Assembly: GCA_016192135.1 (NCBI GenBank)
Contig: JACPUR010000019.1
Span: forward strand, 159,291-223,290
Reading direction: 5' to 3'
Length of the DNA: 64,000 nucleotides
Source of the DNA: Candidatus Tectomicrobia bacterium
GTDB lineage: Bacteria; UBA8248
The position numbers and the translations under genes are program-made. This document shows positions 50,765 through 53,752 of the stretch, piece after piece. The notes below the pieces were generated by a model, which was not told the origin of the DNA, did no database searches, and saw only the letters and a list, made by a program, of their open reading frames with translations. Positions within the stretch are counted from its first letter, which is position 1. The number at the start of each line of letters is the position of its first letter.

Positions 50765-52339
50765 GTGCCGATCACGCATCTTACCACCGAGGAGCGCTAC
50801 CGGGTCATCAGGCGGGTGGGCCACGTGCTCAACTCGAGCCTGGACCTGAACGTGGTGCTCCCGCGCCTGGCCCAGGAGCTCAAGGCGATCTTCCCCCTGG
50901 ACCACGTGGCGCTCTGCATCATCAACCCCGACGGGAAGAGCTACAGCTGGACCAACATCACGACGGACGAGGGCGGGGTCGCGCTGCCGGGCGAGAACGT
51001 CCCGCTGCAGGGCGGCGCCCTCGGCTGGCTGATCGAGCACCGGGGCGACATGCCGCACGTCATCTACGAGGACCTCGAGCGCGAGCGCCCGTTCGCGGAG
51101 GACGAGATCGTATTCAAGCGGGGCATCCGCAGCGGCATCCGCGTCCCGCTCGAGATCGACAATAAGGTTTTCGGCGAGCTCGCCGTGGCCAGCTACACGC
51201 CCCGGCGCTTCACGGAGGAGATGGCGCGCTTCCTGCTGGACCTGGCGCCCTCCATCGCGACGGCCGTCGCCAACGCCCGTGCCTACGCCCAGCTCGAGGC
51301 CAGCCGCCAGGACCTCTACCACGAGGCGGTCCTCCTCCGGGACGAGCTGCGCGAGCTGCACAACTTCGAGGAGATCATCGGGAAGAGCCCGGCCATCCAC
51401 AAGGTCCAGGATCTCATCCGCCGGGCCGCGCCGACCGAGGCGACCGTGCTCATCCTGGGCGAGACGGGGACCGGCAAGGAGCTCGTCGCCCGCGCCATCC
51501 ACAACCTGAGCTCCCGGCGCAGCCGCGTGCTGGTGAAGGTGAACTGCGCCGCTCTCCAGGACACGCTGCTGCTGAGCGAGCTCTTCGGCCACGAGAAGGG
51601 CGCCTTCACCGGGGCGGTGGAGCGCAAGATCGGCCGCTTCGAGCTGGCCCACAAGGGGACCATCTTCCTCGACGAGATCGGGGAGCTCCCCCCGGAGGCC
51701 CAGGTGAAAGTGCTTCGGGTGATGCAGGAGCGGGAATTCGAGCGGGTAGGCGGCACCCGCACGGTGCAGGTGGACACGCGCATCATCGCCGCCACCAACC
51801 GCGACCTCGAGGCCGAGGTCCGCGACGGGCGCTTCCGGAGCGATCTGTTCTTCCGCCTGAACGTCATCCCCATCCGCGTGCCCCCCCTGCGGGAGCGCAA
51901 GGAGGACATCCCGCTTCTCGTCGAGCATTTCGTCCGCCGGCACGCCACCCGCCTCAACCGGCGGATCAAGGCCGTGGACCCGCGGGACCTCGACCGCTTC
52001 ATCCGCTACGGCTGGCCGGGGAACATCCGCGAGCTCGAGAACGTCGTGGAGCGCGGGCTGGTGCTGGGAGCGGGCGAGGTGCTGCGCTTCGACAAGCAGC
52101 TCATCGGCGAGGCCCCCCAGGCGCGCGAGGACGGCAAGGAGCGCCTCACCACCCTCGAGGAGCACGAGCGGCAGTACATCCTCCGGGTGCTGGCCCAGAC
52201 GGGCGGCGTGGTGTCCGGAGAGCGCGGCGCGGCCCGCATCCTCGGGATGAAGCCCACGACCCTCCAGTCGCGGATGAAGAAGCTCGGCATCCGCGCCCAG
52301 CGAAAGTTCGGCGAGGTGGGCGAGCGCATCGCCGGCTAG
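50765..52339 (+). CDS. Sigma-54-dependent enhancer-binding regulator, GAF-AAA-Fis (FhlA-like)
   Basis: 524 residues, GTG start. A GAF sensor fills about residues 22-165 (DHVALCIINPDGKSYSWTNI, IRSGIRVPLEIDNKVFGELA). A short coiled coil follows, then the AAA+ domain with Walker A GETGTGKE (about 232-239) and the sigma-54-contacting GAFTGA loop in KGAFTGAVERKIGRFE. Walker B GTIFLDEIGELPPEAQ and FFRLNVIPIRVPPLRERKED follow. A Fis-type HTH ends the protein (ARILGMKPTTLQSRMKKLGI). A near-consensus sigma-54 promoter lies 244 bases downstream of its stop, so it most likely activates that operon. The signal sensed by GAF is unknown. Confidence 0.93.
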   Translation: MPITHLTTEERYRVIRRVGHVLNSSLDLNVVLPRLAQELKAIFPLDHVALCIINPDGKSYSWTNITTDEGGVALPGENVPLQGGALGWLIEHRGDMPHVIYEDLERERPFAEDEIVFKRGIRSGIRVPLEIDNKVFGELAVASYTPRRFTEEMARFLLDLAPSIATAVANARAYAQLEASRQDLYHEAVLLRDELRELHNFEEIIGKSPAIHKVQDLIRRAAPTEATVLILGETGTGKELVARAIHNLSSRRSRVLVKVNCAALQDTLLLSELFGHEKGAFTGAVERKIGRFELAHKGTIFLDEIGELPPEAQVKVLRVMQEREFERVGGTRTVQVDTRIIAATNRDLEAEVRDGRFRSDLFFRLNVIPIRVPPLRERKEDIPLLVEHFVRRHATRLNRRIKAVDPRDLDRFIRYGWPGNIRELENVVERGLVLGAGEVLRFDKQLIGEAPQAREDGKERLTTLEEHERQYILRVLAQTGGVVSGERGAARILGMKPTTLQSRMKKLGIRAQRKFGEVGERIAG

Positions 52340-52474
52340 CGTCCCCCGCCCGGTTGGCCGGGTTCGAGCTTCCCCAGCTTCGAGAATTGCGTCCATCCGG
52401 CTCCGAAATATCCAGGCACTCCTGATTTTCGCCCCCATGTGACGGTTTTCCTCATCTCCTATATAACGATATGT

Positions 52475-52547
52475 CGTAAATTATCTCAATTTCGTGTCAC
52501 TCTCCAAGCACTTCCAATTGTCCGCTCGCCGAAAATTCGACGTAAAT
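52475..52547 (+). promoter_or_regulatory. Candidate upstream activator sites
   Basis: CGTAAAT occurs at 52475-52481 and again at 52541-52547, 66 bases apart, about six helical turns. They lie 109 and 43 bases upstream of the sigma-54 promoter, in an AT-rich patch, where an enhancer-binding protein would bind. No dyad was proven. The rest of 52340-52580 holds no recognised gene. Confidence 0.3.
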
Positions 52548-52583
52548 ATTTGATTTTAATGATATTAGGGTATCGGATGTCTT

Positions 52584-52599
52584 TGGCACAATGGTTGCT
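52584..52599 (+). promoter_or_regulatory. Sigma-54 promoter
   Basis: TGGCAC (52584-52589), five bases, TTGCT (52595-52599): a full match to TGGCAC-N5-TTGCW with the invariant GG and GC eleven bases apart centre to centre. Transcription would start near 52611, about 70 bases before the first small gene. Confidence 0.85.
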
Positions 52600-52678
52600 T
52601 TAGATGAAATCGCTGTGGATTTCCGTGGTTTTCCCGGCGCCGTCTGCCGCCGGTGAGAAGGAAAGGAGAAAAGGCATC

Positions 52679-52888
52679 ATGGACTTTCTGGTTGGATTGC
52701 TGGTTCTGGCGGTCCCCACGCTGGCCCTGGGGGTCATCCTCCGGAGGCGGCAGGAACTGGTGGGCCTCGGCCTCCGCCCCTACCGAGAGGGGGAGGTCCG
52801 CCCCTGGGAGACGGAGGCGGTGAGGCGCGCCGACCGGCGGCGGATCAACGCCCTGCTCGAGGAAGAGCTCATCCGCCGGGCCGCGTGA
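52679..52888 (+). CDS. Small single-span membrane protein, first gene of the sigma-54 operon
   Basis: 69 residues from ATG 52679, with AAGGAG about ten bases upstream. One N-terminal helix (FLVGLLVLAVPTLALGVIL), then a charged cytoplasmic tail RRRQELVGLGLRPYREGEVR with PWETEAVRRADRRRINALLE. By the positive-inside rule the tail is cytoplasmic. The family was not recognised. A longer start at 52604 would add 25 residues but sits only a few bases after the promoter, so it cannot be used by that transcript. Confidence 0.65.
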   Translation: MDFLVGLLVLAVPTLALGVILRRRQELVGLGLRPYREGEVRPWETEAVRRADRRRINALLEEELIRRAA

Positions 52889-52900
52889 GGGAGGCAGAGA

Positions 52901-53035
52901 ATGGATTTCGTGGTCGCCGCCGTTGTTCTGGGTTTTCCGGTGATGCTTTACGCGCTCCTCTTCACGGGACCGCGGAGACACCCCGCCGAGACGTCCCGGC
53001 AGGACGAAGGGAAGGCCGAGCGGCGGGCGGCTTAG
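52901..53035 (+). CDS. Tiny membrane protein, second gene of the sigma-54 operon
   Basis: 44 residues: MDFVVAAVVLGFPVMLYALL forms the membrane helix and FTGPRRHPAETSRQDEGKAE with RRAA is a charged tail. GGGAGG lies seven bases before the ATG. Like its neighbour upstream it starts MDF and ends RRAA, so the two may be diverged duplicates. Function unknown; not recognised. Confidence 0.6.
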   Translation: MDFVVAAVVLGFPVMLYALLFTGPRRHPAETSRQDEGKAERRAA

Positions 53036-53051
53036 CCGGGGAGATGCGTCC

Positions 53052-53216
53052 ATGACGTTGCTGCTGATGGTGTTTTTCACGGCCGCGTTCATCGCGCTGG
53101 CGATCCTCACCGGCGGGAACGGGAACGATCACGCGGCCGACACCGAGGCCCGCCGGAGGATGCGGGCCCGCCTGGCGCGGGGCGGCTTTCCGGCCGAGGG
53201 CTGGGAAGTCTTTTAG
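53052..53216 (+). CDS. Tiny membrane protein, third gene of the sigma-54 operon
   Basis: 54 residues: helix MTLLLMVFFTAAFIALAILT, then GGNGNDHAADTEARRRMRAR and a C-terminal LARGGFPAEGWEVF. GGGGAG lies eight bases before the ATG. It has the same plan of one helix and a charged tail but no sequence likeness to the other two apart from the Arg-rich stretch. Function unknown. Confidence 0.55.
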   Translation: MTLLLMVFFTAAFIALAILTGGNGNDHAADTEARRRMRARLARGGFPAEGWEVF

Positions 53217-53257
53217 GGGGCCCGAGGGCGCCCTTTGGATTGGAGGCTGAAGAGCCG

Positions 53258-53752
53258 ATGTATACGCATGTACTGATTCCACTGGACGGGTCGAAAGCGG
53301 CCGAGGCCTCCGTGAAGGAGGCCGTCCGCATGGCTCCGGCCATCCGGTCCGTTCATCTGCTGATGGTGGACGAGCCCGTCCGCAGCTCGATCCGGCTGGA
53401 CGGCTACGTCCTGTACGTGGACCAGTGGTACCGGATCCGCCGCGAGATGGCCGAGGACTACCTGCGCCCCATCGCCGAGGAGCTCAGGAAGGCGGGCTTG
53501 TCCGTCACCCAGTCCGTCCAGTTCGGCGAGGCCGGGGCGGCCATCGCCAAGGCGGCCGAGAACCTGAAGGTGGAACTCGTCCTGCTCGGCGGCGAGGAAG
53601 GCGGGTGGTTCCGGCGTCCCACGGGGCTGGCCGGGCTCGCCCCCCGGATCGTGCGGAGGGTCAAGGCGGCCGTCCTGACGGTTCGGGAAGCAGACATTCG
53701 CGCGGCCGAGGACCAAGCGCCGCAGGAGGTCCGCGTCACCCAGGCCGCCTAG
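53258..53752 (+). CDS. Universal stress protein (UspA family)
   Basis: 164 residues. MYTHVLIPLDGSKAAEASVKEA is the canonical UspA start. VELVLLGGEEGGWFRRPTGLAGLAPRIVRRVKAAVLTV corresponds to the G-2x-G-9x-G-(S/T) ATP-binding run, but it is modified, with Ala-Pro where G-S-V/T is usual. ATP binding is therefore uncertain. It is the last gene of the sigma-54-controlled unit, 41 bases after the third micro-protein. Usps are induced under starvation and respiratory or membrane stress. Confidence 0.9.
   Translation: MYTHVLIPLDGSKAAEASVKEAVRMAPAIRSVHLLMVDEPVRSSIRLDGYVLYVDQWYRIRREMAEDYLRPIAEELRKAGLSVTQSVQFGEAGAAIAKAAENLKVELVLLGGEEGGWFRRPTGLAGLAPRIVRRVKAAVLTVREADIRAAEDQAPQEVRVTQAA

Follow-up and report, generated by a model that had tools for sequence, protein, structure and literature searches.

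Within a 64,000-nucleotide stretch of a Candidatus Tectomicrobia genome (the window, whose coordinates we use throughout), a gene for a sigma-54-type activator is followed by a promoter and by an operon for three microproteins and a universal stress protein (Usp), and together they look like a dedicated regulatory unit. The features lie in this order (aa, amino acids; TM, transmembrane; UAS, upstream activating sequence):

50765..52339, + strand: activator (GAF-AAA+(sigma-54)-Fis, one-component, predicted enhancer-binding), 524 aa, GTG start; GAF, Sigma54_activat, HTH_8
52466..52477, no strand: candidate enhancer (UAS) box A with the genome's only perfect copy, ACGATATGTCGT; centred 112 bp before the -24 TGG
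52484..52495, no strand: UAS box B, TCTCAATTTCGT; 18 bp downstream of box A; degenerate, with its right half (TTTCGT) retained
52584..52599, + strand: sigma-54 promoter -24/-12, TGGCACAATGGTTGCT; perfect consensus; expected transcript start ~52610
52679..52888, + strand: microprotein 1, 69 aa; N-terminal TM helix, basic tail predicted cytosolic, ends ...EEELIRRAA
52901..53035, + strand: microprotein 2, 44 aa; short version resembling microprotein 1, one TM, ends ...AERRAA
53052..53216, + strand: microprotein 3, 54 aa; one TM, ends ...GWEVF; orthologues in genera g1, g3 and g6
53258..53752, + strand: Usp, 164 aa; Pfam Usp (PF00582) E 1e-12; low-confidence C-terminal tail ending ...VTQAA
53806..53853, + strand: perfect 14-bp hairpin after the Usp gene; candidate operon end

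The initial annotation had described a GAF-AAA-Fis activator, a complete promoter 244 bases after its stop in the same direction, and three microproteins and a Usp, closely spaced with ribosome sites. All were found at the places it gave, and a G/A-rich Shine-Dalgarno-like stretch precedes the start of every operon gene. The enhancer and the Ala-Ala C-termini shared by most of the products are additions to that description.

The activator has a GAF domain and matches Sigma54_activat (E 3e-71) and HTH_8 (E 5e-8) in Pfam, and its sequence contains the Walker A motif GETGTGKE, a GAFTGA loop and FLDEIGE, all of which are kept by every orthologue save for GSFTGA in three. The AAA+ Walker motifs, the loop and HTH_8 mark it as a predicted sigma-54 enhancer-binding protein, and an rpoN gene was found in the same genome. 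Its scores fall below the NCBIfam equivalog cut-offs for NifA (430 versus 529 bits), FhlA (424 versus 830 bits) and NorR (357 versus 476 bits), and on this measure it appears to be a GAF sigma-54 activator outside every named equivalog. Fe-S or other Cys-based sensing was considered and rejected, because the GAF domain has no Cys conserved among orthologues.

Near the N terminus of each microprotein lies a single strongly hydrophobic segment, preceded by few positive charges and followed by several; by the positive-inside rule this arrangement would place the N terminus outside and the C terminus inside. An alternative 94-aa open reading frame (ORF) for microprotein 1 begins at 52604, upstream of the likely transcript start. 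The operon had been called unknown, and this description held: the microproteins have no match in Pfam or NCBIfam, and a search of 272 genomes from other families did not find them either, its three weak matches being pieces of long ORFs. A literature search found no paper combining sigma54, universal stress protein, small membrane protein and operon.

The conserved start of the Usp is the ATG at 53258, which corrects a TTG at 53240. Its structural model (predicted local distance difference test, pLDDT, 81) has only Usps as top PDB matches, consistent with its PF00582 membership. The nucleotide-binding motif G-2x-G-9x-G-[ST] is found in none of the 14 module Usps, and paralogous Usps of the same genome keep THGR...GS; lacking the canonical ATP motif, the module Usp would fall outside the ATP-binding subclass. 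A separate two-component cluster (L080, G000:C38, 5383-9741) has two Usps, a PAS histidine kinase, a sigma-54 response regulator and a third Usp; these Usps keep THGR...GS and have no Ala-Ala ends.

Conservation across the family

The window genome comprises 3.92 Mb, and its nearest named relative is Candidatus Tectomicrobia bacterium RIFCSPLOWO2_12_FULL_69_37 (activator 90% identical); the other members of the family were deposited as Nitrospinota/Nitrospinae metagenome-assembled genomes. Our sample of the phylum was this single family, with 18 genomes, 11 of them of high quality. The module, defined as Usp plus microprotein 1, is present in 14 of the 18 and in all 11 high-quality genomes, single per genome except for one local duplicate, so that small genes and promoter proved to be conserved in relatives, the opposite of the outcome that would have spoken against the initial annotation. 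The module is lacking in G005 and in three genomes that are incomplete (67-79%). Orthologues of the activator occur family-wide, in 14 genomes at 64-91% identity over the full length, and nowhere else in a 61-genome sample, in which the next-best matches are ~46-48% identical, mainly within the AAA+ domain. The activator subfamily, palindromic enhancer, promoter, microproteins and Usp thus co-occur across the family, in keeping with the earlier description of a self-contained sigma-54 regulon.

The number of microproteins per genome ranges from one to three: three in genus g1 (the window genome and G002), two in g3 and in G007, two that resemble microprotein 1 in G003, and one in g5. In g5, activator and operon are separated, either by 3.4-6.7 kb with the operon downstream or by location on different contigs, and enhancer and promoter stay with the operon. 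Nonsynonymous divergence (dN) was below synonymous divergence (dS) in all 14 pairwise comparisons with estimable dS, a fifteenth pair being saturated; five microprotein 1 pairs in g5 gave dN 0.03-0.08 versus dS 0.15-0.30, and the window compared with its nearest relative gave dN 0.30 versus dS 0.57. These values indicate purifying selection on all four operon genes. Given the orthologues in 13 other genomes and dN below dS, the small ORFs appear to be real genes.

Promoter and enhancer

The match to TGGCACAATGGTTGCT at 52584-52599 is the sole one in the 64 kb, where 0.01 would be expected by shuffling. Genome-wide there are five matches, and one in a reversed control. Two of the four others have recognisable downstream genes, which are different; one of these sites (L004) precedes flagellar-rod-type genes, as does a sigma-54 site (L089) in the nearest relative; such sites represent ordinary sigma-54 use. 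Across 13 loci the module promoter has no mismatch in ten and one in three, and in six g5 genomes the module site is the genome's only perfect TTGGCAC-N5-TTGCW.

Alignment of the 13 module promoters revealed an upstream palindrome, ACGATATRTCGT, present as one or two boxes. With at most one mismatch it occurs in 12 of the 13 loci, compared with 0.2% of shuffled sequences. Its centres lie 93-96 or 111-114 bp from the -24 TGG, that is, as two phased boxes 18 bp apart; G003 has both perfect, and the degenerate box B of the window sits where other genera have their strong box (93-96 bp). Palindromic sites upstream of a -24/-12 promoter are the enhancer geometry of bacterial enhancer-binding proteins such as NifA, NtrC and NorR, and the fixed enhancer-to-promoter distance expected of such proteins was found here. 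We infer that the activator binds ACGATATRTCGT.

The exact enhancer word occurs in 10 of the 18 genomes, and in 8 of these 10 nowhere else in the genome; the extra sites are one in G003 and one in G007, the latter within a coding ORF. Because the word is almost absent elsewhere in these genomes, the activator is predicted to be essentially single-target, with the operon promoter as its only recurrent target. When the search was relaxed to one mismatch, noise prevented the naming of more targets, and two candidates (L204, L205) had no promoter at the proper distance. In G013 (C14, L198 1325-1701, minus strand), a tandem enhancer with one mismatch is followed after 95 bp by a sigma-54 site with one mismatch and a diverged microprotein of 66 aa that ends NLRKAA, just upstream of the main module; this duplicate unit can be read as a natural experiment.

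Downstream of the extra G003 site by 107 bp is a sigma-54-like site, TTGGCATGAAAAATGCTT, with two mismatches. This second combination of enhancer and sigma-54 site (L115/L210; G003:C75:3607-4640) precedes a 158-aa protein ending ATAA and then an 82-aa protein, a pair that by eye is antitoxin-toxin-like (HicB/HicA-like) and has no Pfam match. Homologues of the 158-aa protein in four g5 genomes end in AA without enhancer or promoter. We therefore rejected Ala-Ala as a hallmark of enhancer control; it tracks the protein, not the enhancer.

Ala-Ala C-termini and a proposed stress switch

Ala-Ala ends microprotein 1 in 14 of 14 cases, the proteins like microprotein 2 in 3 of 3 and the Usp in 13 of 14, the sole exception (L045) being on a contig where the reading frame departs. 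The same end is found in 6 of 325 ORFs of the window genome (1.8%; ORFs from ~0.46 Mb, picked by a simple rule on third-position GC content, GC3) and in none of 135 neighbouring proteins. The chance of three of the four window products ending in Ala-Ala is ~2e-5 when the products are treated as independent; the orthologues' ends are evidence of retention only, not independent evidence of origin. The Usp tail varies in length and sequence while its final two residues are constant, and residues 152-164 were modelled with pLDDT below 50, as expected for a disordered tail.

Tags of transfer-messenger RNA (tmRNA) in the family read ADNELALAA or ADTELALAA; no tmRNA of the window genome itself was recovered above the cut-off. 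ClpX of E. coli reads the ssrA tag through residues 153/154, 199/202 and 228/230 (PMC7652416), and the ClpX of the window genome keeps GYVG, TRDV and RKH at the matching positions. The sequence features of an ssrA-like degron, Ala-Ala on an unstructured tail and the ClpX recognition residues, are thus present. Because of the Ala-Ala bias, the disordered-type Usp tail and the compatibility with tmRNA tag and ClpX, a degron is the likeliest reading of these ends, and proteolysis of the products is probable. The known ClpXP substrates with Ala-Ala, the ssrA tag and related degrons (PMC7652416), likewise combine this C-terminus with a compatible ClpX, whereas here the tails are encoded on unrelated proteins of one operon and have no Leu before Ala-Ala.

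We propose that the locus is a dedicated sigma-54 on/off stress switch, in which Ala-Ala-tailed membrane microproteins and a Usp are proteolysed after a pulse (probability about 0.6). The activator would sit on one or two tandem ACGATATRTCGT palindromes ~95-113 bp upstream of the -24/-12 promoter and, when its GAF domain senses a cue, would open the promoter. A burst of one to three single-TM microproteins (N-out, C-in, with a helical cytosolic tail) and of a Usp without canonical ATP motif would follow, and the inner membrane would be the site of action of these products. ClpXP, or FtsH in the case of the membrane products, would read the Ala-Ala ends and remove the products once the cue ends, so that the stress response at the inner membrane would switch on tightly and off fast. 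The wiring of activator, enhancer, promoter and operon is very probably correct, and the membrane or stress role of the products is more tentative, at somewhat less than even odds. A more elaborate version, which we consider doubtful, is a novel, phylum-specific stress pathway with no output other than a membrane-anchored microprotein-Usp assembly, every piece of it self-destruct-tagged, in which the microproteins tether the non-ATP-binding Usp to a membrane target and proteolysis sets the pulse length.

Several observations weigh against the proposed switch. Microprotein 3 has no Ala-Ala, and the residue before Ala-Ala is R, K, Q, T, P or E, never the Leu of the ssrA type. Contact between Usp and microproteins is a guess and rather unlikely, and any signal for the switch would likewise be a guess. 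G005 (L051, contig C5) keeps the activator and has no detectable module genome-wide. Its activator, the most distant orthologue, is convergent with a TRAP-transporter-like gene, and its target may have been lost or changed.

The Ala-Ala ends could instead be a docking motif through which the C-termini of microprotein and Usp bind a common partner, for example a membrane protein with a C-terminus-reading pocket. That microprotein 1 and several Usps have an R/K-x-AA or x-R-AA pattern exceeding bare AA, and that the C-terminal helix of microprotein 1 is its best-conserved region outside the TM segment, would suit such docking, but the variable Usp tails before AA would not, and AA agrees exactly with both the established ClpXP signal and the native tmRNA tag; we regard docking as unlikely. 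About equally improbable is a role of the microproteins as accessory subunits in a transporter or respiratory complex whose genes lie elsewhere, with the Usp as a TeaD-like regulator and the sigma-54 switch adjusting the complex. Single-TM accessory subunits such as KdpF and CydX are common, and the closest folds include TeaD, a Usp linked to a TRAP transporter, yet no transporter or oxidase gene is conserved beside the module, the SSF symporter upstream being there only in genus g1.

A divergent phage-shock (Psp) system, with a PspF-like activator and PspB-like small membrane proteins, would share the logic of a sigma-54 activator adjacent to membrane microproteins with a cytosolic tail, such as PspB. 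We rejected membership as very improbable: the operon has no PspA, PspB or PspC homologue, 13 sequences of microproteins 1 and 2 gave no PspB or PspC match in Pfam up to E 10, and the activator carries a GAF domain and falls short of the PspF equivalog cut-off (TIGR02974, 281 versus 443 bits). Least probable of all is that sigma-54 site and palindrome arose by chance or serve the activator gene, with the operon driven by another promoter; consensus matches by themselves prove nothing, but in g5 enhancer and promoter travel with the operon, away from the activator.

The proposed switch, if correct, looks like a phylum-wide, pulse-type stress response, and the locus provides a small regulatory unit that is open to experiment and that all high-quality genomes of an uncultured Tectomicrobia/Nitrospinota-like phylum retain. 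Should the degron reading be true, the transcriptional tightness of sigma-54 and built-in proteolysis would be joined across an operon of unrelated small proteins, and C-terminal Ala-Ala would be a sequence handle for finding other short-lived microproteins.

Related systems and neighbouring genes

With the PspF-A-C-B network of the phage-shock system (PspF and pspABCDE in E. coli; PMC3068692) the locus shares its plan, in which small inner-membrane proteins of a stress-type response, here a predicted one, are under the control of their own sigma-54 activator; it differs in its GAF sensor, Usp and Ala-Ala tails, and in that no adaptor-type repressor was seen. NorR-norVW, FhlA and NifA have the same GAF-AAA+-Fis architecture and tandem palindromic enhancers upstream of a -24/-12 promoter, whereas this activator scores under each of their cut-offs and no enzyme is encoded in its target operon. 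In Halomonas elongata the Usp TeaD, which goes with the TRAP transporter TeaABC, has the same fold as the module Usp (Foldseek prob 1.00, E 4e-7) and is likewise encoded with membrane proteins; the present module has no transporter, and its Usp lacks the canonical ATP motif and has a degron-like tail. In the sigma-54 regulome of D. vulgaris, with its 37 enhancer-binding proteins, 8 target operons have no known function (PMC4641369); a sigma-54 operon without an explanation is therefore not in itself unusual. Among sigma-54 targets in Planctomycetia, UspA-domain COG0589 is reported to be enriched (PMC12316311).

The module sits in a conserved housekeeping neighbourhood that reads gmk, yicC-like, NFACT, hemW, activator, module, rimK, proA and cytochrome c, where gmk, yicC, hemW and proA are names that we take from reading the sequences. 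The rimK-like gene was rejected as an operon member, because the hairpin at 53806-53853 intervenes and in L043, L044 and L081 an opposite-strand gene lies between. The SSF sodium:solute symporter upstream (47608-49295, E 2e-41), which is preceded by a 62-aa family-less membrane protein, was rejected as a part of the system because it is at this place only in g1. In g5 (L046-L050, L052) a conserved 243-aa protein with no significant Pfam match (DUF4286, E 0.014) starts 17-35 bases after the activator stop and seems to be co-transcribed with it; it is not beside the activator in other genera. In g3 (L043, L044, L045) a small conserved minus-strand protein with the motif AMARDPEVxxAFSAVIEA and no Pfam family lies between activator and promoter. 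An NFACT/RqcH-like gene (44674-46419; Pfam NFACT_N, E 5e-82) lies ~5 kb upstream, and this synteny is conserved across all genera. RqcH appends C-terminal alanine tails, which likewise lead to ClpXP, and the presence of this gene near proteins that end in Ala-Ala is probably a coincidence.

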